A stretch of DNA of 64,000 nucleotides from Myxococcales bacterium (GCA_022563535.1 JADFNE010000021.1:1-64000), one strand, 5' to 3'; shown: positions 42,271 to 64,000, numbered from the stretch's first letter. Numbers and translations: made by a program. Notes: a model not told the origin generated them from the letters alone.

Positions 42271-42894
42271 ATGACCGAAGCCGAAACAAAACCCTCGAGC
42301 GTGCATTTTTGGTTCGAGTTCGCGAGCACGTATTCGTATCTGGCCGCCTCTCGAATCGAAAAGATCGGAAACGCTGCGGGCATCGACATTGTCTGGGAGC
42401 CCTTCTTGTTGGGTCCCATTTTCAAGGAGCAGGGCTGGCGAGACTCTCCCTTCAATTTGTATCCACAAAAGGGTCGCTACATGTGGAGAGATATCGAGCG
42501 GCTGTGCGAGGGGTATGGGCTCCCGTTCAAGAAGCCCGAGAATTTTCCCGCAAACAGCCTGCTTGCCGCCCGAGTGGCAAGCGTGGGGCGCGAAAAATTC
42601 TGGCTGCCAGATTTCACTCGCGCCGTGTACCACGCCAACTTTGTCGACGGCAGGGATATCTCGGACCCGGAATTGATCGCGGATATTCTCGCCGCTGTGG
42701 CACAACCGGCCGAAGAAGTGATCGACCAGGCCAATCGAGACGAAACCAAGAAACGCCTGCGAGAGCAGACCCAGCGGGCTAGCGACCTCGGAATCTTCGG
42801 GGCGCCAACCTTCAGCGTGGGAGACGAGATCTTCTGGGGCAATGATCGCCTGGGAGACGCGATCGTCTGGGCCCGGGGCGGAGGCGCGCCTTGA
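42271..42894 (+). CDS. 2-hydroxychromene-2-carboxylate isomerase-like protein (DsbA family)
   Basis: 207 aa from ATG 42271, 54 bp from the divergent cyclase start. HCCA isomerases use glutathione to interconvert isomers in naphthalene breakdown; many homologues are general glutathione-dependent enzymes. The family start FWFEFASTYSYLAASRI and the C-terminal GIFGAPTFSVGDEIFWGNDRL are well preserved, including the Gly-x-Pro-Thr-Phe segment. The true substrate is uncertain because no aromatic degradation genes are nearby. Confidence 0.87.
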   Translation: MTEAETKPSSVHFWFEFASTYSYLAASRIEKIGNAAGIDIVWEPFLLGPIFKEQGWRDSPFNLYPQKGRYMWRDIERLCEGYGLPFKKPENFPANSLLAARVASVGREKFWLPDFTRAVYHANFVDGRDISDPELIADILAAVAQPAEEVIDQANRDETKKRLREQTQRASDLGIFGAPTFSVGDEIFWGNDRLGDAIVWARGGGAP

Positions 42895-42958
42895 AGCTGC
42901 GCCCGGAGTTCTCCCGAATCTCGATTTCGCTGCGGAAGAGCGTCGAAGCCCGCTTCTC

Positions 42959-44713
42959 ATGATCACCAGCATGCTTTTGATCACGGGCAGCTGGATCGTG
43001 TTGGCGGGACTGCTGATCGGCCTGGGCGCCGCAACCTGGCGATTGTGCGGGGCATCGACCCCCGTGCACTTATCGTCGGCGTTCTTCGTTGGCTGGGCGG
43101 TCTGGATCGGCATCCTCCAACTGCTCCATTTCTGGATTCCCATGAGCGAGGCAGCGGTGTCAGCGCTGCTGATCACCCTGGGCGGGATGGGCTCGATATG
43201 GAATCGACGTCCCCTCGGCGCGAGGCTCGGCACCGCGCTGCGCGAGCACAGCCTCATCCTCTTTGGCCTCGCGGTCTTTGCCCTTTGGCTGTCCAATCGC
43301 AGCCTCGGTCCGCTGCTCGCGGTGGACGCCGGTCTCTATCACCTGAGTTCGATCCAGTGGGCCAGCGACTACCCGCTGGTGACGGGCCTCGGCAACCTGC
43401 ACGGACGACTCGCCTTCAACAGCGCAGCGTTTCTCTGGTTGTCTTCCCTCGACTCATGGCCGGCGATGTTTCGCTCATTCAACGTCGCCCTCGGACCCCT
43501 GTTGCTGGCGGCGATCGCGCGAATGGCGCTTCGGACCAAAGCCTGGAGCTCCGGCACCGAAGCTCCGCAAGCCACACGCGTCTTTCACGCCGCACTGTTG
43601 CTACCACTGCTCTACGCAGCTGCAGTCATGCACGTATCGAGCACCAATCCGGACTGGATCGTGTTGATCCTCGGCGGCGTCTTGGCATCCGAATTGGCCG
43701 ATCTCATGGGCCTCGATACGGACGCCAATCCAAGCGGAAACTTCCTCGCGATCGCGGCCCTCTGCGCTGCCGGCATAACAGTCAAGTTGAGCTTTGCTGC
43801 CCTGGGCGGGGCAGTTCTCGCGGTCGCCACGGTTCAGGTGTTGCGTCTCCACTCGGAGCATCAACGCAACGCGTTGCGAGATCTCCTGCCCGGAATTTTA
43901 CTGGTGCTCCTGCTGCTCATTCCCTGGTCCCTGCGCAGCTTCGAAATGAGCGGTTACCCCGCCTACCCCAGCACGCTCTTCGCGGTCGATGTGCCGTGGC
44001 GGGTGCCCGAAGCCCGGGTCGAAAGCGAGCTCCGATGGATTCGCAGTTGGGCACGAGCGCCGGGACAATCTCCCGATCACGTAATGGGAAACGCCGACTG
44101 GATCGTTCCCTGGTTCAAAGACCGGCTTCGAAGTTCGGACTCGGTTGCACTGCTGTTGTTTCCCCTGGCGCTATCGGCCTGGGGGCTCTTGTGGCTTGGC
44201 CTGCGTCGCACGACCGTGTCGAGTCTGAAGCCCCCGCTCATCGGGCCCTTCGCGTTCGCGGTACTGGTTTGGTTTGCAGTCGCACCGGATCCGCGTTTTC
44301 TCGGGAGTTCGTTATGGGCCTGCGCAGCGGGCTTGCTCGCAGCCATGCCCCGGCGAAGGACCGCCGGAGACGGATCCGATCTGGGACGAATGATTGCGAG
44401 GGGCGGCGCGGCGCTCTGCACCCTCGGATTCCTGGCGTTTGTCGGCTACATGGGCTCGAGGGTTGGCGGTGCGTACATTCGACCGGGCCCCAGCGACGGA
44501 CGCTATCCCGTACAGAGAGTCCAGACGGAAGAATTCCGAACCCGGTCGGGATTGATTCTCAATATCCCTCGCAAGGGCGATCGCTGTTGGGAGGCACCGC
44601 TCCCCTGCACACCGTTCGCGACACCGCGATTGCGGCTGCAGATAGACGGTCGGCTCGACAGTGGCTTCGAACTGGAACCACTGGAAGCTTCGGGGCGGGG
44701 AGCCGGCGCGTGA
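42959..44713 (+). CDS. Polytopic membrane protein, LIC_10190-like
   Basis: 584 aa from ATG 42959, chosen because the upstream extension is hydrophilic and reads through the end of the isomerase gene. At least ten hydrophobic segments, with a central luminal-type motif VDAGLYHLSSIQWASDYPLV then TGLGNLHGRLAFN. This matches a family of unknown membrane proteins that look like lipid-linked sugar transferases (GT-C) with an acidic residue after the first helices. It lies 64 bp after the isomerase gene and 3 bp before the convergent kdsD end. A role in envelope glycan assembly is likely but unproven. Confidence 0.65.
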   Translation: MITSMLLITGSWIVLAGLLIGLGAATWRLCGASTPVHLSSAFFVGWAVWIGILQLLHFWIPMSEAAVSALLITLGGMGSIWNRRPLGARLGTALREHSLILFGLAVFALWLSNRSLGPLLAVDAGLYHLSSIQWASDYPLVTGLGNLHGRLAFNSAAFLWLSSLDSWPAMFRSFNVALGPLLLAAIARMALRTKAWSSGTEAPQATRVFHAALLLPLLYAAAVMHVSSTNPDWIVLILGGVLASELADLMGLDTDANPSGNFLAIAALCAAGITVKLSFAALGGAVLAVATVQVLRLHSEHQRNALRDLLPGILLVLLLLIPWSLRSFEMSGYPAYPSTLFAVDVPWRVPEARVESELRWIRSWARAPGQSPDHVMGNADWIVPWFKDRLRSSDSVALLLFPLALSAWGLLWLGLRRTTVSSLKPPLIGPFAFAVLVWFAVAPDPRFLGSSLWACAAGLLAAMPRRRTAGDGSDLGRMIARGGAALCTLGFLAFVGYMGSRVGGAYIRPGPSDGRYPVQRVQTEEFRTRSGLILNIPRKGDRCWEAPLPCTPFATPRLRLQIDGRLDSGFELEPLEASGRGAGA

Positions 44714-44716
44714 GGG

Positions 44717-45775
44717 CTATCTCGTGTCGAACACCGAGAAGCCCCGGGCGATCAGATCCTGCACGTCGATCATGCCGGCGACGTGTCCTGCCTCGTCCAC
44801 GACCGGGATCTCGTCGATCGCATGTTTTCGCATGATCTTCAGCACATCGATCACCATGTCGTCGCGCTGAACGTGCACCGGATTGTGGCTCATCGCTTCG
44901 GTGACGGGCAGTTGCGCGGCGAGGTCTCGCTTTTTGAACAGACGAAAGAAGTCACCGTGGGTCACGATTCCCACCAACTGCTTGGAACCGTCTACCACCG
45001 CGGCGGCACCCGCTCGCCGGGGCGCTTTGAGGATTGCCTCGTAGCACTCTCCCAGGCTGGCTTCAGAATCGATGACCGGACAGTCCACACCCACGCGCAT
45101 GAGTTCGTGGGCGCGCATCAGCGAGCGCCCCAGCGCCCCGCCCGGATGATAGAATGCGTACTGCTCGGGATTGATCGCACGGAGTTCCATCACCGAGAGC
45201 GCCAGAGCATCTCCCAGCCCCAGCATGGAGGCGGTCGACGAACTGGGTGCCAATCCCAGTGGACAGGCCTCGGCGGTGTCACCGATATCGAGAACGTGAT
45301 CGGCGTACTTCGCTGCCTCGGAATCCAGGTTGGCGGTCAGCAGGATCACTTTGCAGCCCTGGCGCTTGAGCAGCGGCAGCAGTGCAGACAACTCCGACCC
45401 GCCACTCTTTGACAAGCCAATCACCACGTCGTCGGCGTGCACCATTCCGAGATCACCGTGCAGTGCTTCCACCGGGTGCAAGCTGTAAGCGAGGGTGCCG
45501 GTGCTGGCCATGGTGGCCTGGATTTTCTCACCGATCAGGCGTGCCTTGCCAATGCCCGTCACACATACGCGACCGCGACACCGGTACAGCGTATTCACGG
45601 CGTCCACGAAGGCCTCGCCCAGCTGGCCGCGGGCGGCGCGGACCGCATCGATCTCCGAATCGAGCACCGCCCGACCGCGAGCCAAAATGGCGTCTCGGGT
45701 GGCCTGATTCAGGGGTTCGTCGCTAGCGGGTGCCGGGGCACTCGACAATTTTGGCTGGCTGGGTCGGATCTTCAT
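44717..45775 (-). CDS. kdsD: Arabinose-5-phosphate isomerase (KpsF/GutQ family)
   Basis: 352 aa from ATG 45775; a GTG at 45796 adds seven residues. It converts ribulose-5-phosphate to arabinose-5-phosphate, the precursor used by KdsA. The SIS domain covers about 40-180 (VCVTGIGKARLIGEKI, GLSKSGGSEL, PSSSTASMLGLGDALA), and two CBS domains follow (VGIVTHGDF and DEIPVVDEAGHVAGMI), which may sense nucleotides. Divergent from kdsB with a 65-bp gap, so both KDO steps can be co-regulated. kdsA is about 20 kb away. Confidence 0.93.
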   Translation of the reverse strand: MKIRPSQPKLSSAPAPASDEPLNQATRDAILARGRAVLDSEIDAVRAARGQLGEAFVDAVNTLYRCRGRVCVTGIGKARLIGEKIQATMASTGTLAYSLHPVEALHGDLGMVHADDVVIGLSKSGGSELSALLPLLKRQGCKVILLTANLDSEAAKYADHVLDIGDTAEACPLGLAPSSSTASMLGLGDALALSVMELRAINPEQYAFYHPGGALGRSLMRAHELMRVGVDCPVIDSEASLGECYEAILKAPRRAGAAAVVDGSKQLVGIVTHGDFFRLFKKRDLAAQLPVTEAMSHNPVHVQRDDMVIDVLKIMRKHAIDEIPVVDEAGHVAGMIDVQDLIARGFSVFDTR

Positions 45776-45818
45776 ATATCTCGCAGTATCGTTCACTCGC
45801 TGGATTCGCTCAACCGGG

Positions 45819-45830
45819 GACGGTACCGTC
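45819..45830. promoter_or_regulatory. 12-bp perfect palindrome GACGGTACCGTC between kdsD and kdsB
   Basis: Perfect palindrome ending 10 bp before the kdsB ATG and 44 bp upstream of the kdsD start. Its place in a 65-bp divergent gap suggests a repressor site that could shut both genes. No further copy noticed. Confidence 0.3.
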
Positions 45831-45840
45831 GGGCCAACTT

Positions 45841-46599
45841 ATGCACCCCATCGTCGGAATCATCCCTGCGCGCTACGCGTCACATCGCCTGCCTGGCAAG
45901 GCGCTGGCCAAATTGGCTGGCAAGCCCATGATACAGCACGTCTACGAACGCGCTTTGCGGGCCCCCTCGCTGGAACGGCTGTTGGTGGCCACCGACGATG
46001 AGCGCATTCGAGACGCCGTGCTGGAATTTGGCGGCGAGGCGGTCATGACCGACCCCGCCCACCCTACAGGCACGGATCGGCTCGCGGAGGTAGTCCGGGG
46101 GCTCGAAGATGTTTCGATCGTGGTCAATATTCAGGGCGACGAACCTCTGCTTTCCCCCGACGCAATCGAGGCCGTCATTGCCCCCCTTTTGCTCGACCCG
46201 AAGCTTTCGATGAGCAGCGCAATGTCGCCCCTGCCCGACCCGCGCGAGGCCCGAAACCCCAACGTCGTCAAAGTCGTCACCGACCTGCAGGGCCGCGCGC
46301 TCTACTTCTCACGCTCACCGATCCCGCTGCCCCGGGAAGACTCGGACGCACCGGGCCCCTGGATGAAACACATCGGGCTGTACGCCTACCGGCGGGATTT
46401 CCTGCTCGAATTCACCCAGCTCGAACCCACCGAACTGGAGCGCTGCGAGAGGCTCGAACAGCTTCGCGCACTCGAGCACGGCCATCGCATCCAGATGGCG
46501 CTGCTCGAAGCCGACGAGTCAATCGGGGTGGACACCCCGGAAGACCTGGAGCGTGTCCGGCAGGTATTGGAGCGACGGGCTGCCGATCAGGATCGCTGA
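45841..46599 (+). CDS. kdsB: CMP-KDO synthetase (3-deoxy-manno-octulosonate cytidylyltransferase)
   Basis: 252 aa from ATG 45841; the frame is open upstream but lacks family residues. KdsB activates KDO with CTP to CMP-KDO. Family blocks are IIPARYASHRLPGKAL, DDERIRDAV, PTGTDRLAEV, VNIQGDEPLL and a C-terminal GVDTPEDLERVR. Divergent from kdsD. The 3' end overlaps the convergent citrate synthase gene by 13 bp. Confidence 0.95.
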   Translation: MHPIVGIIPARYASHRLPGKALAKLAGKPMIQHVYERALRAPSLERLLVATDDERIRDAVLEFGGEAVMTDPAHPTGTDRLAEVVRGLEDVSIVVNIQGDEPLLSPDAIEAVIAPLLLDPKLSMSSAMSPLPDPREARNPNVVKVVTDLQGRALYFSRSPIPLPREDSDAPGPWMKHIGLYAYRRDFLLEFTQLEPTELERCERLEQLRALEHGHRIQMALLEADESIGVDTPEDLERVRQVLERRAADQDR

Positions 46600-49289: not shown

Positions 49290-50540
49290 TTGGCAACGAG
49301 ACTTCAAATCGCGACTCAGAACGTCTGGGGTCTTCCAGAACCCTTCGCCAAACACGTCTTGCCGCGGATGCAAGAACTGGCCCGGTCGCTGATGGAATGC
49401 ACGGAAGACGTACTGGTATTCCAAGAGGCCTGGACGGCGGAGATCCGCAAGATCCTGGTGGATGGGGGCCGGAGAGCCGGATTCACTCACCACTGGAATC
49501 CGGCTGACGGTGCGGGCGGAGGTCTGCTCATCATCTCCCGTCTGCCTTTCGATCAGCCGCGCTTCGAACGGTTTCACTTGACCGGGACACTCGGACGCTT
49601 GAATCGCGGTGAGTACCTGGGTGGCAAGGGCTTCGCAAGCGTCAGGCTCAAGACCGAGCAGGGGCCGGTCTGGCTCGTGAACACTCATCTGCACGCCTCC
49701 TATAGAAGCAACCAGAAATTCATGAGCAGCGCCGTGCGAACGGCTCAATTGCTTCAGCTAGCCGACTCGCTTCCAGTCTCGGGTGAGCCGGTCATTGTCG
49801 CAGGCGACTTCAATTGCAATCAGGGCGATGCGGAGTACGTCATTTGGCAGGGGCTCTCGGGCATGCGAGATGCGGCCCTCGCCTTTGATCACCCTCCGAG
49901 CACGATCTCGAGCGAAAATTTCTACAAGCGTGGCATCGAAAGCGATGACCGAAGGATCGACTACGTCTTCGTTGAGAATGGATCGGCGTTGGCTCTCGAA
50001 CCGATCGCATCGCGACGAGTCTTTGACAAAACCTTCGATCTCCGCGGTCGACCGCGACCGATATCCGATCACTTCGGTATATCCCTCACGTTCGAACTCC
50101 AGCCCACGACGTCAGTGCAACCCGTCGAAGTGCGCAGAGCCGCAGGCCCCAATATCATCTCGAACGCTCGTCGATTGCTCGAGAAGGCCAAAGCCGAAAT
50201 CGATCGAGAGGAGATCACCAACGATCGAGTGGTCGCAAACTTGGCAATGCTGGCGGGTGGCGCAGTACTGCTGCGATCGAACGAGCGCGTTACCCGCCGG
50301 GGGCTGCTCCATCGCGCCCTGGGGTTCGCCGGGCTCGCCGCTGTCGGACCCGCAGTTGCGCTCAAAGCGATCGCCATGTCGGACGCCGATCGGCAGCGCC
50401 ATGCATTCACGGCCGCGACCCAGACTCTCGCGAAGTTCGACCACGATGGCGGGCGTTGGGCACGACGGGAACTGGATTCCATCATTGGCAGTCCTGCTGT
50501 GCCGCTCACGCCGAAGAACGGTCGCTCGAGCAACGGCTAG
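49290..50540 (+). CDS. Endonuclease/exonuclease/phosphatase-family protein with C-terminal extension
   Basis: 416 aa from a TTG start, supported by GGAG seven bases upstream. The EEP fold covers residues 5-275: QNVWGLP, VLVFQEAW (metal Glu), NTHLHASY, VAGDFNCNQGD, RRIDYVFV and the final SDHFGI His. Bacterial relatives include sphingomyelinases and deoxyribonucleases. The extra 140 residues after the domain include a weakly hydrophobic segment (RALGFAGLAAVGPAVAL) that could anchor it to a membrane. Substrate unknown. Confidence 0.8.
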   Translation: MATRLQIATQNVWGLPEPFAKHVLPRMQELARSLMECTEDVLVFQEAWTAEIRKILVDGGRRAGFTHHWNPADGAGGGLLIISRLPFDQPRFERFHLTGTLGRLNRGEYLGGKGFASVRLKTEQGPVWLVNTHLHASYRSNQKFMSSAVRTAQLLQLADSLPVSGEPVIVAGDFNCNQGDAEYVIWQGLSGMRDAALAFDHPPSTISSENFYKRGIESDDRRIDYVFVENGSALALEPIASRRVFDKTFDLRGRPRPISDHFGISLTFELQPTTSVQPVEVRRAAGPNIISNARRLLEKAKAEIDREEITNDRVVANLAMLAGGAVLLRSNERVTRRGLLHRALGFAGLAAVGPAVALKAIAMSDADRQRHAFTAATQTLAKFDHDGGRWARRELDSIIGSPAVPLTPKNGRSSNG

Positions 50541-50733: not shown

Positions 50734-51858
50734 ATGTCGAAGGCGCTCATGACGCAGCTGCAACACGGTGCGGGGCACGCGAGAATCTGGGTCCTCACGG
50801 AGGGTCGAGCGGGCGACAATGCCCAGGTCATCGCCCTCGCACGGGCGCTGGAGCTGCCTTTCCGCGTGCTGGCGCTCGAGGGCAACACCGTTCCGCGCAT
50901 GATCCTCGATCGCATCGAAGACTTCCTCGGCCTCGATCGGAAACCCCTGCGGCTGCCCGCCGACGCACCCGAAGCATGGCCCGACCTCGTGATCGGGATC
51001 GCAGGCGGCAGCGTCAGCACAGTGCGTCGCGTTGTCCATGTTTCAGGCGGGGTCACCCACAGCGTTCAGCTCGGGCGACCCGTCGCGTCCCTGCGCTGCT
51101 TCGATCTCGTGGTGACCACTCCGCAGTACGGCCTGCCCGAGGCGCCCAATGTGTTGAATGCCACGCTGCCCTTCGGGATTACCACGTCAGATCCCGAGCA
51201 CACGGCATTCTGGAGCAAGAAACTTTCGAAGATGCCGCGGCCCTGGACGGCCTTGCTCGTCGGCGGGAATAGCGGCTCGTACCGGCTGGGCAACGAGGCT
51301 TTCAAACGAATCGTCGAGACCGCGACCCGCGCCGTGTCGCGCGGCGGCTCGATCCTCGCGACGACCAGTCCGCGCACGCCCAGCTTCGTCGCCGACGCCC
51401 TTCGGGAAGCGTTGCCCGCGCCAAACTTTGTCCATGCGTACGAGCCCGGCGATCCCTCGAACCCCTATTCGGCGTTCCTCGATCTCGCCGATCACTTCGT
51501 GGTGACCGGTGAGAGCGCTTCGATGATTGCCGATGCGGTGAAGACGCGACGCAGCGTAGAGATCGTGACCCTCGACCCCAGGTGGCTCTCGAGACTGCTC
51601 GTGGGGCTGCATCGATCGGCGACTCGACTCGCCGGCGGGCTGACGAGAGCCCTCACCCTGCGCGGACTGTGGGTGCCGCCGCGGGATCTCGAGGCGTTTC
51701 ACGAGCGGCTCTTCACAGTAGAGGCGGCCGGTGGCTGCGACGCCGCCAGCCCCACCGACGATCAACGGGTGCTCGCTCGGGTGCGCGCGCTCATCGAGCC
51801 AACCGACGAGCCCGCGGCCAAGCCCTGGCCACGGCCAGTCGTGGGGGCGACCGAGTGA
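50734..51858 (+). CDS. ELM1-like protein (mitochondrial-fission ELM1 family, DUF1022-type)
   Basis: 374 aa. The N-terminus WVLTEGRAGDNAQVIALARAL is the family signature, followed by GGNSGSY and a Rossmann-like C-terminal half with FVVTGESASMIADA. Plant ELM1 acts in mitochondrial division, but bacterial members are uncharacterised and resemble GT-B glycosyltransferases in fold; I take a sugar-transfer role as likely. It is the first gene of a five-gene operon: its stop overlaps the GTG of the next gene by four bases. Confidence 0.8.
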   Translation: MSKALMTQLQHGAGHARIWVLTEGRAGDNAQVIALARALELPFRVLALEGNTVPRMILDRIEDFLGLDRKPLRLPADAPEAWPDLVIGIAGGSVSTVRRVVHVSGGVTHSVQLGRPVASLRCFDLVVTTPQYGLPEAPNVLNATLPFGITTSDPEHTAFWSKKLSKMPRPWTALLVGGNSGSYRLGNEAFKRIVETATRAVSRGGSILATTSPRTPSFVADALREALPAPNFVHAYEPGDPSNPYSAFLDLADHFVVTGESASMIADAVKTRRSVEIVTLDPRWLSRLLVGLHRSATRLAGGLTRALTLRGLWVPPRDLEAFHERLFTVEAAGGCDAASPTDDQRVLARVRALIEPTDEPAAKPWPRPVVGATE

Positions 51859-52562
51859 GTGACGCAGGCTGCATGGACCCGGCTGCGCTCGCCACGATCC
51901 GCGCGGACGTCGTCGCTGCCGCCGAACCTTATCCCTGGTTCGAGCCACAGCGGTTGATCCGCGAGTCGGTGTATTCGCGCTTGCTCGACGAGTTGCCACA
52001 ACCGGAGATCTTCAGAAAGATCGTGGGCAGGCGGCGGCGCTACGGACAGGCGAGTCACGACCGCTTCTCCCTCGACTACAAGCCCGGCATCCCACTCTCG
52101 CCGCTGTGGCAGGATTTCATCGATGAACTCCATAGCGAGCCCTACATGACGAAGGTCAGGGAACTGCTGAAGCGGGAAGACTTTTTCCTCACCTGTCATT
52201 GGCACTACACCCCGACTGGATGTTCTGTTTCGCCGCACTGCGACGCAGCGTGGAAGCTCGGCTCACACATCTTCTACTTCAACGACAAAACAAAGTGGGA
52301 TCCGAGCTGGGGCGGCGCGACGGTCATTCTCGACGACGGTGGCGCAATTGGCTACACGTCGGCTCCGAAGTTCGAGGACTTCCCCGCTCGCATCGATTGC
52401 GAACCGACGGGAAACCGCAGTCTTCTGTTCTTGCGCACCGACCATTCGTGGCACGGCGTCGAGCCACTCCGCTGCCCAGAGGGCGAGATGCGCAAGGTCT
52501 TCATCGTCGAGTACCGCAAGGACAGCATACGCGAGCGCTTTCGCGCACGGACCGGTATCTAG
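51855..52562 (+). CDS. 2-oxoglutarate/Fe(II)-dependent oxygenase
   Basis: 235 aa from GTG 51855, whose GTGA overlaps the stop of the ELM1-like gene. Fe(II) ligands H128-x-D130 are in SVSPHCDAAWK and the distal His is H200 (SWHGVEP; H197 nearby), followed by the 2-oxoglutarate-binding Arg R213 (MRKVFIVEY). This is the prolyl-hydroxylase-like double-stranded beta-helix fold, so it should hydroxylate a metabolite, lipid or sugar. The stop is immediately followed by the sulfotransferase start. The substrate is presumably a glycan or lipid handled by the neighbours. Confidence 0.85.
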   Translation: MSDAGCMDPAALATIRADVVAAAEPYPWFEPQRLIRESVYSRLLDELPQPEIFRKIVGRRRRYGQASHDRFSLDYKPGIPLSPLWQDFIDELHSEPYMTKVRELLKREDFFLTCHWHYTPTGCSVSPHCDAAWKLGSHIFYFNDKTKWDPSWGGATVILDDGGAIGYTSAPKFEDFPARIDCEPTGNRSLLFLRTDHSWHGVEPLRCPEGEMRKVFIVEYRKDSIRERFRARTGI

Positions 52563-52570
52563 TGGTAAAT

Positions 52571-53584
52571 ATGACATCTCCAATCGAAGACACAAAGACA
52601 GCTACCGCTCGGCAAAAAGCGATTGTCGTCGTGGGGCCCGGGCGCAGCGGGACGAGCGCCCTCACCCGGGCGGTCGCGGCTTTGGGGGTGGATCTCGGCA
52701 GCAATCTGAAGCGGGGATCGTCGAAAAACCCGAAGGGCTTCTTTGAGGACCTCGATATTCTCGATTTGAACTACGAGCTTCACGAGGCCTTCGGCCTGCG
52801 ACGCAACGGCTCGAGCGTGCGGTTGCTTGCGGCCGAAGACTGGGAGCGCGTCGACCTGGCCCCCTTCCGCGAACGACTCGCAAAGATCGTGCGCAATCGT
52901 TTCGCCGACGCCGAGTGTTGGGGCTTCAAGTGCGGCGGAGTCATTCGCATGCTGCCCTTCTGGGAAGAGACGCTCGAAGCCCTGCAGCAACAGGTCTACT
53001 ACGTCATGGCTGTCCGCAACCCGCTCGACGTCGCAGCTTCGCGCCGCAAACTCGACGCTCTGCGTGGCGTGCGCGAGAAGTGCGACGTCGAATGGCTCAC
53101 CCAGGTGGTGCCCTACTACCGCCGACTTTTCGACCGGCGCTGCGTGGTCGTCGACTTCGACCGCCTGCTGGACGATCCGCAGCGAGAGTTACGACGCATG
53201 GCTCGGGTGCTCGAGATCGAGGTGACCGAGGACATCGAACGCGGCATCCGCGAATACGCTGACGAGTTTTTAAACCCCGACTTGCGGCACAGCGCCACGG
53301 GCTTCGACGCCTTCGCGAACGATCCGCAGACAAACGCAGCCACCCGGGAGGGCTATCGCTGGCTGCTTCGCTTCGCATCGGATGAGGTCGAGCCCGGAAA
53401 CGCAGCACACGAGCAGTGGCTGAGTGAGTGGACGGGGATCGAAACGTCGCTCGAAACGATGCGCCCCTTGCTGCGCCATATCGATTCACTCGAAGACGAT
53501 TTGCGCCAGCGCAACTGGGGAGTGAGCGCTTTCTTACGCGCCCGCCTGTGGAGGGGTCGCGGCTTGGCTGCGCCCGCCGGATGA
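52571..53584 (+). CDS. Sulfotransferase-family protein (first of two)
   Basis: 337 aa from ATG 52571; a GTG at 52562 overlaps the previous stop and is also possible. PAPS-dependent sulfotransferase fold: the 5'-phosphosulfate loop is GPGRSGTSALTRAV (22-35) and the 3'-phosphate site is AVRNPLDVAASRRKL (147-161). The acceptor cannot be predicted. It differs from the next gene in sequence and is not a simple duplicate. Stop overlaps the next start (ATGA, 53581-53584). Confidence 0.85.
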   Translation: MTSPIEDTKTATARQKAIVVVGPGRSGTSALTRAVAALGVDLGSNLKRGSSKNPKGFFEDLDILDLNYELHEAFGLRRNGSSVRLLAAEDWERVDLAPFRERLAKIVRNRFADAECWGFKCGGVIRMLPFWEETLEALQQQVYYVMAVRNPLDVAASRRKLDALRGVREKCDVEWLTQVVPYYRRLFDRRCVVVDFDRLLDDPQRELRRMARVLEIEVTEDIERGIREYADEFLNPDLRHSATGFDAFANDPQTNAATREGYRWLLRFASDEVEPGNAAHEQWLSEWTGIETSLETMRPLLRHIDSLEDDLRQRNWGVSAFLRARLWRGRGLAAPAG

Positions 53585-54591
53585 GGGCTGCGCGCGATCT
53601 CGGTCACCGCGCCTGGGATACGACCGCAGCATCCCTGCGCGACTGGGCGGCCGTCAACAAGGCGCGACGACAAGCCAACGCACTCGTGCAATCGGCCGGC
53701 GCGAGCGAAGCAGTACTCGTCTATGGCCGCCTCATACGCGAGGTACAACGAGCGCGGGAATCCCTGGGCAGCTACGACCAGATCGCAACATGGCTCGACG
53801 ACGGAGCATCCCCTCCCGACGATCTCGAATTGCCCACCGAGGCACCGGAAACCCTGCTGCTCTTCGTCGGCTATTCGCGCAGCGGTCATTCGCTGGTGGG
53901 CTCATTGATCGACGCACACCCCAACGCAATCATCTCCCACGAACTCCACGCCGCGAAGCATCTGGCCGCGGGGGCATCACTTGCCCGAGTACAGCGCGCC
54001 ATCGCGCTCAACGCCTATTTTTTTCACCACTTTGGCCGCGGCTATTCGGGCTACAACTACGAAGTGCCCGGGCAAATGCAGGGGCGCGTTCGTCGCCTGC
54101 AGATCCTCGGCGACAAGAAGGCGAACGGCACGACGCGGTTGCTGCGCAGCGATCCCCAGTTCCCACAGCGGCTGCGTGAGCATTTGGGCGTACCCGTGCG
54201 CTGGATGCACGTGATCCGCAACCCCTTCGACAACATCACGACCAAGGCGCGGCGCACGCGCACCAGTCTGCGCTTTGCGGCCAACGTTTATTTTCGACAC
54301 GTCGAAGCCGTCGTCGCGCTCAGGCGTACGGAGGGCGAACGTGTGATCGACGTCTACCTCGACGATCTGACGAAAGACCCGCGCGGTGTGCTGGGCTCGC
54401 TAGTCGAAACTCTGGGACTTACGGACACTCCCCCGGACTACCTCGATGCATGTGCAGAACGGGTCTTTGCCAAGTCGCGGAAAACCAGCTCCGCCAATGA
54501 ATGGTCGAGCGATCTGCTGCGGGACGTTCGTGCGCGCATACGCGACTGCGAGTTCCTGGCGCGTTTCGCGGATGAGCCGATAGCAAAATGA
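53581..54591 (+). CDS. Sulfotransferase-family protein (second)
   Basis: 336 aa from ATG 53581. An N-terminal 80 aa part precedes the PAPS loop VGYSRSGHSLVGSLIDAHP (96-114), and the 3'-phosphate site appears later in MHVIRNPFDNITTKAR. It is only distantly related to the upstream sulfotransferase. A second sulfotransferase suggests that two positions of the same product are sulfated. Stop overlaps the start of the glycosyltransferase gene (54588-54591, ATGA). Confidence 0.85.
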   Translation: MRAARDLGHRAWDTTAASLRDWAAVNKARRQANALVQSAGASEAVLVYGRLIREVQRARESLGSYDQIATWLDDGASPPDDLELPTEAPETLLLFVGYSRSGHSLVGSLIDAHPNAIISHELHAAKHLAAGASLARVQRAIALNAYFFHHFGRGYSGYNYEVPGQMQGRVRRLQILGDKKANGTTRLLRSDPQFPQRLREHLGVPVRWMHVIRNPFDNITTKARRTRTSLRFAANVYFRHVEAVVALRRTEGERVIDVYLDDLTKDPRGVLGSLVETLGLTDTPPDYLDACAERVFAKSRKTSSANEWSSDLLRDVRARIRDCEFLARFADEPIAK

Positions 54592-55748
54592 GCCCGCTCG
54601 CTGAGTCTCAGCAGCGAACGGAACGGCCGCGCTACGGCATCTATTTGAGCGCCCGCAACATGGGCAGCCGGGAACGACTTTTGCTGGCCGTTGCACGGGC
54701 TCTGGTCGCGCGCGGAGGCCAGGTGGACATCCTGGCTGCGGGGGCCGAAACGACCCTGCGCGACGCACTCGCCGCCGATCCAATGCCCAATTTGCGACTG
54801 ATCGATCTGGCTCCGCGCGGATGGCCCGCACCTCACAAGCTGCGCGTTGCACTGACGATTCCTCGCCTCGCGCGCTGGATCGATGAGTGCCGGCCAGCGG
54901 TCCTGCTCGGAACCTCGGTGCCCCCCAATCTCGCTTGTATCGCCGCCACGCGTTGGGCGCAGCACAGTCCACAGGTCGTGCTGCGCCAGAGCAACACGCT
55001 GCGGATCGACCATCACGCTCGCTACGGCGGACTGCGTCGTCGACCGCGCGATCTTCTCGTGCCGCGGTTCTACTCCCGCGCGCAGGTGATCATCGCAGTG
55101 GCAAGTGAAGTCGCAGACAATCTTTCTACGCTGGGAATCGAAACCCCCATCGAGGTCATTCCGAACGCGGTCGAAATTGCCTTCGCGGCGCAACGCGCTC
55201 GCGAGGAGCCGGATCACCCATGGCTCGCGGAACGCGACCGACCCACTTTGATTCAAATCGGACGACTCGTGGCAAAAAAGGATCAACTCACGCTGCTCGA
55301 CGCATTCGCCAAGGTCGTGCGCGATCGGCCAGCTCGGTTGCTGGTCTACGGAGAGGGCCCGATGCGTCGCACCCTCGAACACCGGATCGCAGCGCTCGGT
55401 ATTGGAGAGCACGTCGCCCTCCCCGGCTTTACGCCGAACCCCTTCGCCGCCATCGCACGAGCCGACCTCTTCGTGCTTTCATCGATTTCCGAGGGCATGC
55501 CGAGCGCGCTGATCGAGGCCCTCGCCTGCGGAACCCCAGCGATCAGCACTGATTGCCCAAGTGGCCCCGCCGAAATCCTGCAAGGCGGCAAGATCGGCCG
55601 CCTGGTTGAAGTCGGAAACGCCGAGGCATTGGCCCAGGCGATGCTCGATACCCTCGACGCGCCGCCGGAGGCTGACACACTGCGGAGACGGGCGGCGGAT
55701 TTTGGTTTTGATCAGATTGTGCAGCGGTATGTGGGCGTGTTGGAATAA
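54588..55748 (+). CDS. GT4-family glycosyltransferase
   Basis: 386 aa from ATG 54588. Two-domain GT-B glycosyltransferase. The C-terminal half has IGRLVAKKDQLTLLDAF, a donor-binding loop, and the EX7E element in SEGMPSALIEALACGTPAIS. It transfers a sugar from a nucleotide donor to a glycan or lipid acceptor. It ends the five-gene operon. The next gene on the opposite strand starts 9 bp after its stop. Confidence 0.9.
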   Translation: MSPLAESQQRTERPRYGIYLSARNMGSRERLLLAVARALVARGGQVDILAAGAETTLRDALAADPMPNLRLIDLAPRGWPAPHKLRVALTIPRLARWIDECRPAVLLGTSVPPNLACIAATRWAQHSPQVVLRQSNTLRIDHHARYGGLRRRPRDLLVPRFYSRAQVIIAVASEVADNLSTLGIETPIEVIPNAVEIAFAAQRAREEPDHPWLAERDRPTLIQIGRLVAKKDQLTLLDAFAKVVRDRPARLLVYGEGPMRRTLEHRIAALGIGEHVALPGFTPNPFAAIARADLFVLSSISEGMPSALIEALACGTPAISTDCPSGPAEILQGGKIGRLVEVGNAEALAQAMLDTLDAPPEADTLRRRAADFGFDQIVQRYVGVLE

Positions 55749-56641: not shown

Positions 56642-57049
56642 TCAGCTGGCCTCTGTGTTCTGGCAGGCCGAAGTTTTATTCGACTCCTCGACTTCCAGGA
56701 GCGCGACGATCACCGAGGCGCCCTGGAATTCGAAGCCGACACGAGTGACTTCGCGGCTGCCGGGCATGCGCAGGGAATAGTTCTTGCCTTCGACTATGCT
56801 CGGCAGGCCAATGCTGGTCGGCTGCGGCATACACGCCTTGAGGTTGCCTCCAATCATGTTCGTGAGCTCGCCGATCGCGTCGGTGATCTCGTCCTCCCCC
56901 AGCTCGCCGGGCTCCATCTCGAACATCATGCTGGCGGCCCGTCGCGCGTGGTCTTCACCAATCTGCAAAACCACCCCCCTCAAGAACGCACCCACACCCG
57001 CCAACCGAGAATGCCCGCCAGTACCCCGCACAGCAAAGTAGGCGTCCAC
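56642..57049 (-). CDS. CheX-like chemotaxis phosphatase fragment
   Basis: 135 aa from GTG 57049, or 110 aa from GTG 56974. The C-terminal core matches CheX: ARRAASMMFEMEPGELGED, then AIGELTNMIGGNLKA, then GLPSIVEGKNYSL. The N-terminal 50 or so residues of typical CheX are missing. In the longer frame they are replaced by residues that overlap the end of the LptF-LptG gene and do not resemble the family. CheX dephosphorylates CheY-P. It may be truncated by a deletion next to lptFG. It is co-directional with the HDOD gene 33 bp downstream. Confidence 0.6.
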   Translation of the reverse strand: MDAYFAVRGTGGHSRLAGVGAFLRGVVLQIGEDHARRAASMMFEMEPGELGEDEITDAIGELTNMIGGNLKACMPQPTSIGLPSIVEGKNYSLRMPGSREVTRVGFEFQGASVIVALLEVEESNKTSACQNTEAS

Positions 57050-59310
57050 GCCGCGAGCGCGGGGGATAGCGTGTGGCCGTAGCCGAGGGAGGTTGCGAAT
57101 CCGGTAACCAGGACGTAGCCCACGCCAATGGCAACGCTCGCTGAAAGGGTTGCGGAAGGACGTGGGAAGGGCGAGCCGCCAACGGCGTAGAGCAACACGA
57201 CGAGGGGCAACAGGAAGCAGGCCAGCGGCTTGGCGAGCCGGGTCTGGTGCTCGACTTCGAGTTCGGTCGAGTCGAGTTTTTCGGCGCGGGCGTCGTCGAT
57301 TGCATTGGTGAGCTCGCCCAGGGTCAGGTTGTGGGTGTCGACGTCGGCGACGAACGTCTCGCCGAGCTGGACGTAGGGCGATGCGGAGACTCGAATGGGG
57401 ATACCGTCGGATCCCAGCTTGATTCGCCGGGGCTCGCTCAACCGCCAGCGACCCCGTCCCACGTGCAGCCCGGAACTCGCGTCGGTGCGCGCCGTGGGGA
57501 GGCCGTCCTCGCCGAGGTCGTAGATCGTGATCCCGGTGCGCGCGACGCCGGTTTCGGTCGACAGACTCATCGATTCGACGAGCTTGCTGCCGGTCGAATA
57601 CCAGACGGGCCGAGGGGATACGTAGTCGGCCGAGCGACCGTAGATCTCTCGGATCTTTACTTCATCCTGCAGCGCGGCCATGCGCGGAGTCACCACGTTG
57701 ATGAGCACGAAATAGACCGGCACGGCAAGCAACGACAAGAGCATCACGGACGCGAGAGCCTTGGGGGCCTGAATCCCGCAGGCGCGCATGCCGAGCAGTT
57801 CACCTTCGGCGGCCAGCAAGCTCACGGTGAGCCCGGTGCCGACGAGCAACGCCATCGGTGCCGCGTTTGCCAAGAGCATCCAGCTGCGCGCCCAGTAGAA
57901 GCGGAGGATTTCGAGCGGGGTCGCGCTGTGCTGGGCGAACCAGTCGATGCGACCCACGAAGTCGATCAGCAAGTAGGCAACGAAGATCACGCCGAAACTC
58001 AGCGCCGCGGTCTCCGCATAACGCAGGCCGACATAGCGGTGTAATGCAAAACGGCGCGTCCGCGACGGACCCGTCTGGGTGCGGGTTTTTCGCCGGGGCG
58101 TGCGCGAGCGCTCGGGCTGTCCGTTGCTGCGCACGACGCCGCGTCGGAATAGCGCCAGTGCAACGGCCAGCAATACAAAGTTGGGCAACCAGGCGCCCAG
58201 GGTCGGCATGCCGAGCGCCTCGACCACACCTTCGCCCACTTGCGCGACTGCGTAATAGGCCAGGGTTGCGAGCAGACCCACGACGCCACCACTCGAGCGC
58301 GAGTGACTGCGGCGCGTCATGAACAGCGGCACCGCCAGAAAACCGAAGAGTCCGGTAGAAACCGGGACTGCGAAACGACGATGCATTTCGAGCAAGTAGG
58401 GTTTAGCGTCGGATGCGCTGCGGGCGGCGGCCTCTGTCTGAAGCTCGCCCAGGGAGAGAGCTTGAATGGGATCGTCGGCCGCTTTGCGTTCGAGCGGTGC
58501 GGATTCACCTGGGAGTTCGGCCCGCATCGAATCAAAGCTGATGCGACGGGGCGAGTTCTTCCCGGCGTAGAGGATCGCGCCCTCGCGCAGCACCAGATGC
58601 GCGGGCTGGCCCTCGAGTTCGACGATCTCGGCACGGCGCGCAAAAACCGTCTCGTCGAGTTCCTCCGTCCAGAGGAGTACCTGTTCCAGATGTTTGCGAT
58701 CGGCCGAGACAGAACGCGCGTAGATCTGCCAGCTACCGAAGCGCGTAAGTTTCTGCGCCTGGATGCGAGCCCAGGGTTGCTCGACCGCCACGCGCTCCCA
58801 AGTCTCCTGCTGGCCGCGGTGGGACCAGGGCACGAGAGTCGTCTGCAACCACAGCGCCGGCAGCGTGAGCAAAGCCGCCAGGAGAAACGCCGGCCCCGAC
58901 AATCGATGGGTCGGTATGCCGCACGAGTCGAGGGCGAGGATCTCCTGATCGGCGCCCAGGCGACCGAGGGCGATGAGCAGGCCGACCAAGGTCGAAAACG
59001 GAATCATCGTGGCGAGCATCGGGATCGCCTTGAAACCGGCGATGATTGCGATGTCCGCGCTCTCGACGCCGCGGCTCGCTAGCGGCATCAGTCGCACCAG
59101 GTCGTTCGCGAGCACGACGAGGGTCAGACCGAAGAGTGCGAAGCAAATGGGGACAATCGCTTCCCGAATGAAATACGCGTACAGCTTCCGGCCGGGCCGG
59201 CCCCTGCGGATCACTGCCGTGGTCTGCCCAGTTCCGCGATCGTTCTCGCCGTCACCCATTGCAGGTTGGACAGAGGCCGTGGGCTGCGAGTTCCGCAAAA
59301 ATCGCGACAC
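56980..59310 (-). CDS. LptF-LptG fused permease of the LPS transporter
   Basis: 776 aa in one open frame from GTG 59310 (ATG 59259 possible). LptF and LptG are separate permeases in most bacteria that extract LPS from the inner membrane together with LptB. Here the first half (about 45-395) and second half (about 425-776) each show the YjgP/YjgQ pattern: an N-terminal group of helices, a periplasmic jellyroll and C-terminal helices. Matching segments are PFSTLVGLLIALGRL in the first half and GTGLTVSLLAAEGEL in the second, each followed by a CGI tripeptide. A charged linker (about 398-425) joins them. No other lpt gene is in the window. Confidence 0.87.
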   Translation of the reverse strand: MSRFLRNSQPTASVQPAMGDGENDRGTGQTTAVIRRGRPGRKLYAYFIREAIVPICFALFGLTLVVLANDLVRLMPLASRGVESADIAIIAGFKAIPMLATMIPFSTLVGLLIALGRLGADQEILALDSCGIPTHRLSGPAFLLAALLTLPALWLQTTLVPWSHRGQQETWERVAVEQPWARIQAQKLTRFGSWQIYARSVSADRKHLEQVLLWTEELDETVFARRAEIVELEGQPAHLVLREGAILYAGKNSPRRISFDSMRAELPGESAPLERKAADDPIQALSLGELQTEAAARSASDAKPYLLEMHRRFAVPVSTGLFGFLAVPLFMTRRSHSRSSGGVVGLLATLAYYAVAQVGEGVVEALGMPTLGAWLPNFVLLAVALALFRRGVVRSNGQPERSRTPRRKTRTQTGPSRTRRFALHRYVGLRYAETAALSFGVIFVAYLLIDFVGRIDWFAQHSATPLEILRFYWARSWMLLANAAPMALLVGTGLTVSLLAAEGELLGMRACGIQAPKALASVMLLSLLAVPVYFVLINVVTPRMAALQDEVKIREIYGRSADYVSPRPVWYSTGSKLVESMSLSTETGVARTGITIYDLGEDGLPTARTDASSGLHVGRGRWRLSEPRRIKLGSDGIPIRVSASPYVQLGETFVADVDTHNLTLGELTNAIDDARAEKLDSTELEVEHQTRLAKPLACFLLPLVVLLYAVGGSPFPRPSATLSASVAIGVGYVLVTGFATSLGYGHTLSPALAAWTPTLLCGVLAGILGWRVWVRS

Positions 59311-59369: not shown

Positions 59370-61094
59370 TCAGCCGGCATGCGCCTCCTCGGCCTCGCCC
59401 GATTCGAGTTCGGCTCGGCCGTCGCGAATGCGATACACGCGATCGGCGATGCGTTTGAGCGCGGGTTGATGAGAAATTGCAATCACCGTCACCGAGCCGC
59501 GCAACCCCTCGATCGTGTCCCAAAGCAGGCGTTCGCTCTCGGGGTCGAGCGAAGCTGTGGCCTCGTCCAGAATCAACAGCTTTGGCCGCGAAGCGAGTGC
59601 GCGCGCAATGCCGATCCGCGTACGCTGCCCCCCTGAGAGCAAGGCGCCCCGCTCACCGACCAGGAGGTCGAGACCCCCGCGTTGCTCGCTGATCTCATCC
59701 CAGACCCCAGCGGCTTTCAATGCGGCGATCACGTCTTCGTCCGAGATGTTCGTGTCGCCCATCGTCACATTGGCGCGAATCGTGTCGTTGAACAGCAGAA
59801 CTTCCTGAGGCACAGCGCCGATCGACGAGCGCCAGGCCGCGAGATCGATTTCGTCCAGCGGTTCCCCGTCGATCAATACACTCCCCGCCGAGGGCTGGAT
59901 CAGGCCGGCAATCAGATCGATGATCGTCGTTTTTCCGCTGCCAGAGGACCCGACCAGCGCGGTAATCTCTCCGGCCGAAAACTCCAGATCGACATTGTCG
60001 AGCACCTGCTTCTCATGGTAGGCGAAGCTCAAACCACGGATCTCGATCGCGCGCTCGAATGTGGGCGCGCGCCCCCCGTGCAACTCTTCGGCCGCCGCCT
60101 TAGTCGCTTCGGTCAGTTTGACGATCGCCTCGAGGAAAGGCTGGGCCGTAGCCGTGCGCTGGTAACACGCCTGGACCTTTTGCGCTTTCGAGAGCCCGCG
60201 CGCCAGGGCCAGCAGCATGACCGACACTTCCGAAAACTCGAGCATGCCGGAGTTCCGCGCGTAGACGAGGCAGACCAGCAGGAGCACGAAGGTAAGCGGC
60301 TCCTGGAGACCTTTGAGGCTTTCATGGGCGAGCACCTCCTTTCGCATCGCCCGCTTGAGGCGCTGGGTATCGGCCTCGAGCAGCGGGCCGACCAAATGTT
60401 CTCGACGCATCATCTTCAACAACTTCACGTTCGGAACGACGTCTGAGAACCGCGAGAGCAGATCGTTGATCACCTTCGATTGCTTGCGTCCCGCCTTGCC
60501 CGCCATCCGCACCAGGAAGTGCAGGATGGCGATTGTCATTGCGCCTCCGACCAGGCTGAGCAGCGCAATCTTCCAGGAGATGACGAGCGCCACGCATACG
60601 CCGACAATGGAGAGGAAAACACTCTGGGTCGCGAGCGCGAAATCTCGAAAGGCGTTGGCGGTACGCGTAGCCTCAACCGAGAGTGCCGTGCTGAGCCGGC
60701 CGAGCGAATACTCCTGGAAGTAGCTCCAGCGCGCGCGGAACAGCGCACTCAATAGTTCTAGCCGCAGCCGGGTCGAAATCCGCGCGACGGCGTTGCCCAC
60801 GTGGCGCCAGGCAAGGATTACGAGCCCAGCCTTGACCCAGATGAGAATACCGATGACGAGTGCGAGGCTCCAAAGCTCGAAGGGTAGACCGATCGAATTG
60901 AGGGCAGCGCTCACTCGGTCGATGGCTTCCGACCCAGACCCCACAGTGACTTGATCCTCCTGCATCGCAAGTGCGAGCAAGGGCACGGCGGTCGCGAGTC
61001 CGAGCCCTTCCGCAGCCGCGGAGAGGATCAGATAGCCGACGGTGAGGGCTGTCTCTTTCGGATACTGGCTCGGGAAGTAGCGGAATGGCTGCAT
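59370..61094 (-). CDS. ABC exporter, fused membrane and ATPase domains (MsbA-like)
   Basis: 574 aa from ATG 61094, with GAGGTAGCAG upstream. A type IV ABC exporter half-transporter: six membrane helices in 1-320, then a nucleotide-binding domain with Walker A VGSSGSGKTTIIDL, signature LLSGGQRTRIGIARAL and Walker B LLILDEATAS. It could flip lipid A or a lipid-linked glycan. It lies 59 bp upstream of LptF-LptG on the same strand, suggesting co-transcription and a role in surface lipid export. Confidence 0.88.
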   Translation of the reverse strand: MQPFRYFPSQYPKETALTVGYLILSAAAEGLGLATAVPLLALAMQEDQVTVGSGSEAIDRVSAALNSIGLPFELWSLALVIGILIWVKAGLVILAWRHVGNAVARISTRLRLELLSALFRARWSYFQEYSLGRLSTALSVEATRTANAFRDFALATQSVFLSIVGVCVALVISWKIALLSLVGGAMTIAILHFLVRMAGKAGRKQSKVINDLLSRFSDVVPNVKLLKMMRREHLVGPLLEADTQRLKRAMRKEVLAHESLKGLQEPLTFVLLLVCLVYARNSGMLEFSEVSVMLLALARGLSKAQKVQACYQRTATAQPFLEAIVKLTEATKAAAEELHGGRAPTFERAIEIRGLSFAYHEKQVLDNVDLEFSAGEITALVGSSGSGKTTIIDLIAGLIQPSAGSVLIDGEPLDEIDLAAWRSSIGAVPQEVLLFNDTIRANVTMGDTNISDEDVIAALKAAGVWDEISEQRGGLDLLVGERGALLSGGQRTRIGIARALASRPKLLILDEATASLDPESERLLWDTIEGLRGSVTVIAISHQPALKRIADRVYRIRDGRAELESGEAEEAHAG

Positions 61095-62009: not shown

Positions 62010-63512
62010 CTAAAAAGCCGCCTTCCAACCCTTCTCTTCGAAGGCTTGTCGACTGCAGTGCTTTGACTTCGGAACATAGGGGGCAATCGCATCGTCGACC
62101 TCTCCGGTTTCGACTGCCGCCTTCAACTGAACCAGCGATTCGACCCGGCGCACTAGCAAGCGAAATGTCAACTGTCCATCGAGATAGCTACCCCAATCGA
62201 GCCAGCAGACGCCGTTTTCCACCGTGGCGTTACGCGGTCGATCTTCTTTCGACGAAACCACGATCGTGTAATAGCCGTGCTCATCGACGGGCACGTCGGT
62301 GTCGATGACCGCGTCCTCGCAAACTCCAGCCCAGAAGTTGTAGGTCGTCACCGTGAAGCCGCGAATATCCTTACCCGCGGTGTAGACGGGCTCGCGCGGC
62401 GTGTCGGGTGCGCTGAGCTTCTTGCCGCGGGTTACATGCACCCGTCCGAGTCGCTGGGTATAGGGCGTAACGAGATAGAGAATGTCGGCGCTCGCCAGAA
62501 TGTCGTAGGGGAGTCCCCAATTGCTCTTGGTGCTGTACTCCTCCGGCCAGCACAGCCCGCGATGATCGGGAATGGGAAGCGGTGCGAATCGGGTGGTGTC
62601 CACTGGAGGGACCGAACCTTCGGGGTGGGGATCGGCCGCTTCGTAGTGAAGCGTCTGAAGACCCCTGGCGTCGTAGACCGTCACCGAAGGCAACCACACT
62701 CCGGCATTGTTCGGCGGCATGGCGCCGAGTTCGGAACCGGTGGTGCGATAGATACAAAAGACCGCCGGGTTGCGGCCGCCCTTTACCTTGACTCCCACGT
62801 AGCTCGTGTTCTTTTCGGGCTCTTCGGGTGTTTCGGTAAAGACCAACTGGGCGGTGAAGCACCGCTCCATTCCCTCCGGCACTTCTTCGCGGAATGGATT
62901 CACGCTGCCCTCGTCGGGGTCGAGATCGACGTCCAATAGCGTGGATAGATTATTGGTGTCGAAGTCGGACGGGTGAAACGCGAAGTAGCGCGAGTGCGGA
63001 TACTCCCCCTTGAACACCACCTTGCCACCCTCGGGCACTGGAATGAACCCGGGCGGGGCGCCGTCCCCATGCCAGAAGCGATTACTGAAGTAGTTTGAAG
63101 CCGAGGTATCGATCAGGTAGGGGAAGCGGTTGTTCGTCTCCGGAGTCGAGACCCCGGGCCAGCCCGGACAACACGGCTCGCCGATCGTTCGTCCCACCTG
63201 GTATTCGGGCGCGCCGAGTCGAATGCCGCAGTTTTCGGCAATGTAGTCGGAGATGCGACCTTCCACGCCGGCGAGTTCGGGATCCGTCAAACGCGGGAAG
63301 ATCCCGAGCACAGCGGATCCAGTCGTGTCCCGCGCGTCGGCCATCAAGCGGTGTAGAAACTCGAGATCGTCTCTGATCTCGTCCGGGGCCACTTCGAGGA
63401 GTTGCCGTACCACGTCGGCGTGACCGACGAACTCGTTGAATTCTGATTTCACCGAAAGCTCACCGGCGATCAACTTGCGCAGGGTCTGCTCGAACCGTGC
63501 GTGATTACTCAT
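62010..63512 (-). CDS. Protein of unknown function with a DUF1214-like region
   Basis: 500 aa from ATG 63512, whose ATGA overlaps the stop of the upstream sulfotransferase. GGAGACC precedes the ATG. No signal peptide. The middle SRYFAFHPSDFDTNNLSTLL then DPDEGSVNPFRE resembles DUF1214 beta-sandwich proteins. The rest shows no recognised motif, but the acidic, beta-rich composition is consistent with a globular protein. Coupling to a sulfotransferase hints at a shared substrate. Confidence 0.6.
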   Translation of the reverse strand: MSNHARFEQTLRKLIAGELSVKSEFNEFVGHADVVRQLLEVAPDEIRDDLEFLHRLMADARDTTGSAVLGIFPRLTDPELAGVEGRISDYIAENCGIRLGAPEYQVGRTIGEPCCPGWPGVSTPETNNRFPYLIDTSASNYFSNRFWHGDGAPPGFIPVPEGGKVVFKGEYPHSRYFAFHPSDFDTNNLSTLLDVDLDPDEGSVNPFREEVPEGMERCFTAQLVFTETPEEPEKNTSYVGVKVKGGRNPAVFCIYRTTGSELGAMPPNNAGVWLPSVTVYDARGLQTLHYEAADPHPEGSVPPVDTTRFAPLPIPDHRGLCWPEEYSTKSNWGLPYDILASADILYLVTPYTQRLGRVHVTRGKKLSAPDTPREPVYTAGKDIRGFTVTTYNFWAGVCEDAVIDTDVPVDEHGYYTIVVSSKEDRPRNATVENGVCWLDWGSYLDGQLTFRLLVRRVESLVQLKAAVETGEVDDAIAPYVPKSKHCSRQAFEEKGWKAAF

Positions 63513-64000
63513 GGGGTCTCCGGGATTGCTGGTTCGCTGATCGGTCGGGGCGGCATGCGATCGTAGCCGAAGGCCTCGAACGCGAACCCCCAGTTTTCAT
63601 TGACGGTGTTCACGATCTCGGGAGGAAAATCGAAGCGGTTCTTTTCATAGCTGCCCAGGCTCTCGAGGTAGCGCTCGAACAGCGGGCGCACGACTTCGAA
63701 ATCGCCGAGTTCGAGGGTCTTGTAGATTTTTTCGAGCTCGGACACCGGGCGCACGTCGAGATCTTCGTAACGAATCTCGACCAGATGTCCGGGCGGAATC
63801 AGGTTTCGCTGTTCGAGGTAGCTCTGCATTTGCACCCGGTAGGCGTGAACGATCCAGGCGTCGATGTCCTCCCACTCGAACTCCTGCAACACCGAGCCCG
63901 GCAACATCTTGCGGTACATGTTCCGCATCGATTGATAGACCGGGTAGGGATTGCGCACGATGTTCACGAACCGAGCGTCCGGGAACATCTCGAGCAAGAC
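63509..64000 (-). CDS. Sulfotransferase-family protein, C-terminal part, cut by window edge
   Basis: Visible 163 codons, with the N-terminus outside the window. The 3'-phosphate-binding segment ARFVNIVRNPYPVYQSMRNMY and the acidic core HLVEIRYEDL are typical of PAPS-dependent sulfotransferases. It is unlike the two at 52571 and 53581. It is followed in the same transcript by the DUF1214-like protein with a 4-bp ATGA overlap. Confidence 0.82.
   Translation of the reverse strand, partial: VLLEMFPDARFVNIVRNPYPVYQSMRNMYRKMLPGSVLQEFEWEDIDAWIVHAYRVQMQSYLEQRNLIPPGHLVEIRYEDLDVRPVSELEKIYKTLELGDFEVVRPLFERYLESLGSYEKNRFDFPPEIVNTVNENWGFAFEAFGYDRMPPRPISEPAIPETP

Follow-up and report, generated by a model that had tools for sequence, protein, structure and literature searches.

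A five-gene Myxococcales operon linking an ELM1-family glycosyltransferase, a 2-oxoglutarate oxygenase and two sulfotransferases: a candidate inner-core lipopolysaccharide pathway

The operon and the closest described systems

3-Deoxy-D-manno-octulosonic acid (Kdo) is an eight-carbon sugar acid, and KdoO, of family PF11004, is an Fe(II)/2-oxoglutarate-dependent Kdo 3-hydroxylase. To our knowledge, ELM1-like proteins had no bacterial function before the Kdo transferase KdoT was assayed. VanOtterloo et al. (2025) found that the ELM1-like protein A1S_2903 of Acinetobacter baumannii is KdoT, which adds a third Kdo from cytidine monophosphate-Kdo (CMP-Kdo) to Kdo2-lipid IVA, and the family 4 glycosyltransferase (GT4) GnaT acts after it (PMC12856342). 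Here we describe a five-gene operon at positions 50734-55748 of a 64,000-nucleotide stretch of DNA from a Myxococcales bacterium (GCA_022563535.1, JADFNE010000021.1:1-64000; the window), which belongs to a genome of 4.6 Mb that is 97.9% complete. The operon encodes an ELM1-family protein, an Fe(II)/2-oxoglutarate oxygenase (2OG), two sulfotransferases (ST1 and ST2) and a GT4 enzyme. It resembles the KdoT-GnaT system in having an ELM1-family protein of GT-B fold with the key SRRT-type arginine, together with a GT4 partner; however, no oxygenase or sulfotransferase is described in A. baumannii, and the window ELM1 protein differs in its motif (SPRT, residues 212-215) and has a putative donor. 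No name or description of an ELM1-type sugar transferase paired with an oxygenase was found in the searchable papers.

All five genes lie on the plus strand, and Pfam confirmed the families assigned in the original prediction: Mito_fiss_Elm1 (PF06258; 148.9 bits, E 2.3e-43, cut-off 27) in the ELM1 protein (50734-51858), 2OG-FeII_Oxy_3 (PF13640; 32.7 bits) in 2OG (51855-52562), Sulfotransfer_3 (PF13469; cut-off 27) in ST1 (52571-53584; 33.0 bits) and ST2 (53581-54591; 29.6 bits), and Glycos_transf_1 (PF00534; 123 bits, E 1.2e-35) as well as PF13439 in the GT4 protein (54588-55748). An NCBIfam search gave no name for the first four proteins. Direct reading of the sequence likewise verified the predicted reading frames and junctions: at three junctions the start and stop codons overlap in 4 bases, and at the fourth a stop adjoins a start. 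The GTG start of 2OG overlaps the TGA of ELM1 (GTGA, 51855-51858), and ATGA joins ST1 to ST2 (53581-53584) and ST2 to GT4 (54588-54591); ST1 starts either with ATG at 52571 or with an in-frame GTG at 52562 that shares the last base of the 2OG stop codon (TAG, 52560-52562). A plus-strand scan of the operon found no terminator-like site, and the operon's base composition is not unusual.

Conservation of gene order and of the ELM1-2OG pair

The operon is more than a local accident, as the same order recurs in unrelated bacteria. A 2OG alignment was scanned against 84,980 species genomes and yielded 79 named loci. ELM1 lies within about 8 kb of 2OG in 52 of the 79, a count that may be biased upward because the alignment for which these loci are the top-scoring hits already included ELM1-linked members. 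In 40 loci ELM1 and 2OG are immediate neighbours in the same orientation, less than 250 bases apart, and in 33 the gap is 30 bases or less. At the level of whole genomes, and resting on the same choice of genomes, ELM1 is encoded in 75 of 79: the 52 with ELM1 at the 2OG locus and 23 of the other 27, where it lies elsewhere. For two of the four genomes that lack it (L104 and L125), the contig ends just upstream of 2OG. A comparison sample of gammaproteobacterial genomes had ELM1 in 30 of 143 (21%). The linkage of ELM1 and 2OG extends across Myxococcota, Binatota, Nitrospirota and Proteobacteria.

The exact order ELM1-2OG-ST1-ST2-GT4 was found in two distant Proteobacteria, Methylococcaceae bacterium TMED69 (L106) and Gammaproteobacteria bacterium WOFB30 (L115), and about 16 further loci show it in partial form; protein identities to the window operon are 28-51% across full and partial forms. 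ELM1-2OG-ST1-ST2 is present in a Geminicoccaceae locus (L099), ELM1-2OG-ST1-GT4-GT4 in L093 and L097, and two ELM1 genes followed by 2OG and ST1 in Salinisphaera and Nitrococcus mobilis; in Halomonas ventosae, ST1-ST2-GT4 is divergent from ELM1-2OG. ST2 lies directly 3′ of ST1 in L099, L106, L115 and L147, and in the last three a GT4 homologue follows the sulfotransferases. The ST1 family occurs in 18 of the 79 loci, and each of these 18 also contains ELM1. Across 19 loci, the pairwise distance matrices of ELM1, 2OG and ST1 correlate with one another (0.82, 0.74 and 0.90), and none of 2000 permutations was as high. The recurrence of the gene order in other classes and the correlated distance matrices strongly support the single pathway that the original prediction had read from the gene coupling.

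Within the window's own order, sampled by 80 genomes, only the ELM1-2OG-GT4 core was found. ELM1 was detected in 36 genomes and a close 2OG homologue in 20; two of the 2OG genomes (G033 and G044) have a more divergent ELM1 fusion beside 2OG that only a hidden Markov model detected, so that all 20 carry ELM1, while 18 other genomes have ELM1 without 2OG. The occurrence of ELM1 alone, but not of 2OG alone, is as expected for an oxygenase that works on the ELM1 product or at a later step. In G063-G067, which belong to another family, a GT4 homologue directly follows 2OG in the arrangement ELM1-2OG-GT4-LptFG, with an ABC (ATP-binding cassette) exporter upstream in several, which is the window's set minus the sulfotransferases. 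ST1 homologues gave 22 matches in the order (28-36% identity, window included) and ST2 was found in 5 genomes. Descent of the complete operon by vertical inheritance in this order was rejected, as the other ST1 and ST2 homologues there sit outside any ELM1 context. The window 2OG groups weakly (70/86) with L093, L097 and L106 and not with its own order, which suggests acquisition by transfer, at poor branch support. The linkage and co-occurrence counts point to ELM1-2OG as the core and GT4 as a frequent partner, with the sulfotransferases as an accessory layer that travels with the core.

Predicted activities of the encoded proteins

The AlphaFold model of the window ELM1 protein (predicted local distance difference test score, pLDDT, 88) has a GT-B fold; its structural matches, at Z 14-17, are GT-B glycosyltransferases, MurG among them, and related epimerases. 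In the SRRT motif of KdoT, loss of R180 lowered core extension and loss of R179 alone did not (PMC12856342). In the window motif, S212 and T215 are conserved in at least 90% of the ELM1 alignment. By analogy, the window protein is probably a KdoT-like GT-B enzyme with CMP-Kdo as its donor. A role as a replacement for WaaA was not supported, since WaaA is present in 67 of the 80 genomes of the order, the window's included. ELM1 often forms the C-terminal half of a protein of 750-880 amino acids (L019:148-2655, L029:1246-3822, L024:1471-3915 and many of L088-L166), of which the N-terminal half resembles a GT8-type GT-A domain (Pfam E 0.04-0.08 only) and the middle stretch is of unknown kind. Three to six ELM1 genes are found in some genomes of the order (G012:C105, G054, G059, G061), several as divergent pairs a few kb apart.

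The facial triad H128-x-D130/H200 that the original prediction had named in 2OG was borne out: these residues, and the candidate 2-oxoglutarate-binding R213, are invariant in 61 homologues. The closest solved structures to the 2OG model (pLDDT 94) are PasI (Z 22.4, 2.4 Å over 200 residues) and PolD (Z 22.1), followed by Tpa1 (Z 20.5) and prolyl hydroxylases (18.7), and PasI was the only significant match in a sequence search of the PDB (E 3.5e-6). According to its entry title, the PasI structure was solved with octanosyl acid 2-phosphate as ligand, and PolD has been proposed to act on octosyl acid, an eight-carbon sugar acid nucleoside (PMC5365060). The shared eight-carbon sugar acid chemistry makes Kdo an attractive candidate substrate for the operon oxygenase by analogy, although PasI and PolD have about 20% identity to it and their own substrates are soluble nucleosides, not lipopolysaccharide (LPS). 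Hydroxylation of proteins by a prolyl hydroxylase-type enzyme that neighbours ELM1 by accident would suit the P4H/Tpa1-type fold (Z 18-20) but is very improbable, given the tight ELM1 linkage in several phyla and the better match to the sugar-acid enzymes.

KdoO is likewise a 2-oxoglutarate oxygenase, and its substrate is the inner-core Kdo proposed here for 2OG, but identity of the two was rejected by sequence: the window 2OG (P0002) belongs to PF13640 and gave no PF11004 match at E 0.1. PF11004 was absent from the window's genome, from its order and from 13 of the 14 relatives' genomes searched, and the same search detects it in Azomonas. KdoO was not among the 50 fold matches listed for 2OG, which excludes nothing.

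ST1 and ST2 have PF13469 matches and conserved motifs resembling the loop for 3′-phosphoadenosine 5′-phosphosulfate (PAPS), as expected of PAPS sulfotransferases. These are GPGRSGTS and RNPLDVAAS in ST1, with G24-R25-x-G27-T28-S29 and R149...S157 conserved (alignment A4), and GYSRSGHSL and IRNPFDNI in ST2, with R100-S101-G102 and R213 conserved (alignment A5). LpsS of Sinorhizobium also performs PAPS-dependent sulfation of LPS but is of another sulfotransferase family, and we know of no Kdo transferase or oxygenase linked to it. Enzyme families matching the hydroxylated and doubly sulfated product of the original prediction are thus present, and it is on these families that such a product is predicted. 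A further sulfotransferase (PF13469, 64.7 bits) at 63509-63997 runs off the window end, beside a 500 amino acid protein without a Pfam match (62010-63512).

LPS-type neighbourhood, proposed pathway and alternatives

Two conserved neighbours lie downstream on the minus strand: a fused LptF-LptG permease (LptFG; 56980-59310, a 776 amino acid reading frame) and an MsbA-like ABC exporter (59370-61094, NCBIfam MsbA/HepA-type match). The LptFG cluster also adjoins the ELM1-2OG pair in G063-G067, and the Binatia loci L094, L101 and L164 have it there as a fused gene; the ABC exporter family occurs in 25 of the 79 loci. Lipid A acyltransferases (PF03279, Lip_A_acyltrans), LptF/LptG, fused LptFG and MsbA-like exporters recur beside the pair. 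A neighbouring kinase has a weak Kdo/WaaP family match (PF06293, 25.5 bits, cut-off 21.3), with a slightly better ABC1 match. Outside the operon are a kdsB-like CMP-Kdo synthetase for donor supply (45730-46599, plus strand; CTP_transf_3, 199 bits) and a kdsD-like arabinose-5-phosphate isomerase (44717-45796, minus strand; SIS and CBS domains recognised by eye from the translation). The nearness of kdsB, cited in the original prediction, is weak evidence because the genome has no other strong match to CTP_transf_3 (kdsB-type). The predicted envelope glycan or lipid product is nonetheless supported, and the KdoT family of ELM1 together with the recurring LPS-gene neighbours narrows it to LPS lipid A/inner core. 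Beside kdsD and kdsB lies a large membrane protein of the LIC_10190 family (42842-44713; NCBIfam 190 bits). An endonuclease/exonuclease/phosphatase-family protein with a weak sphingomyelinase-type match (49290-50540) is encoded on the strand of ELM1 and stops 193 bases before it, and its homologue comes after ELM1-2OG in L073 (G026).

We favour, with about even confidence, the reading that the five genes form one operon that builds and decorates the inner core of LPS or of an LPS-like glycolipid. The ELM1 protein would transfer Kdo from CMP-Kdo onto a lipid A-core acceptor, and 2OG would hydroxylate a core sugar, most likely the Kdo added by ELM1, to give Ko (the 3-hydroxylated analogue) or an oxidised octulosonate related to it. 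ST1 and ST2 would each add one sulfate from PAPS, and the GT4 enzyme may extend the core, as GnaT does after KdoT in Acinetobacter. The product would then be flipped by the MsbA-like exporter and passed on by LptF/LptG. A bolder proposal, which we put forward tentatively and think rather less probable, is that 2OG founds a second inner-core Kdo oxygenase family that is unrelated to KdoO and whose link with ELM1-type Kdo transferases is obligate across several phyla, with a product that is here twice sulfated and carried by a dedicated fused LptFG.

Several points weigh against the inner-core reading. The activities and product of the enzymes are predicted from families and context, as are every substrate, the order of steps and the placing of hydroxyl and sulfates on one molecule. 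An attempt to predict the ELM1 donor from the GT-B fold was uninformative. R214 is invariant in a 38-sequence alignment (A3) that does not include KdoT, and is equated with KdoT R180 by motif; SPRT replaces an arginine of SRRT, albeit one that was dispensable in KdoT (PMC12856342). PasI and PolD lead Tpa1 by only about 2 Z units and the prolyl hydroxylases by 4. Azomonas has both KdoO and a 2OG homologue; as both are carried, 2OG need not duplicate KdoO. Directly after the pair in L155 is a cluster with a NeuB-like synthase with a cupin domain (L155:8941-10434), which makes another CMP-ulosonate possible.

The module may instead make a second LPS-like glycolipid, separate from LPS and served by a dedicated MsbA-like exporter and fused LptFG, a live alternative that we consider unlikely. 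The fused LptFG is indeed an extra copy beside separate single-domain LptF/LptG genes on contigs C13 and C29; Wenzhouxiangella loci add a diacylglycerol kinase-like protein, a fatty acid desaturase and an LpxL-like acyltransferase to ABC-ELM1-2OG, and genes resembling CDP-alcohol phosphatidyltransferases are added in Myxococcota and Binatia loci. In Salinicola, however, the pair has a WaaP-like kinase and lptF-lptG-pepA in their ordinary arrangement as neighbours, and LpxO-type hydroxylase genes (PF05118) are found near it in Salinisphaera and Azotobacter vinelandii, all of which suits ordinary LPS. To a similarly low degree of probability, the operon may serve the LPS core while 2OG oxidises a hexose, heptose or acyl chain, or while the ELM1 donor is not CMP-Kdo. 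Neither fold fixes a substrate, ELM1 is often fused to the GT8-like domain of unknown sugar, and the L155 NeuB-like gene agrees with another donor; but lipid A hydroxylation has its own enzyme in those same LpxO-type neighbours, and CMP-Kdo is the donor of KdoT, the only ELM1 family that has been tested (PMC12856342). Although polysaccharide clusters often contain sulfotransferases and GT4/GT2 enzymes, a role in decorating a capsule or exopolysaccharide with no relation to LPS is improbable, since the neighbours that recur are lipid A and Lpt genes and no gene of Wzx/Wzy type was recognised next to the operon.

The interpretation in the original prediction is thus supported in part; it had left out that Kdo transfer is proven for one member of the ELM1 family (PMC12856342). 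Tractable hosts that carry ELM1-2OG are A. vinelandii, H. ventosae and N. mobilis; a literature search found no structural reports of sulfated or Ko-containing LPS for the prospective test organisms. ELM1-like proteins are now tied across phyla to a single family of oxygenases, joined in a subset by sulfotransferases, and this PF13640 subfamily gains a concrete candidate function. The ELM1-2OG linkage predicts that hydroxylated, sulfated inner-core LPS would be widespread in environmental bacteria.

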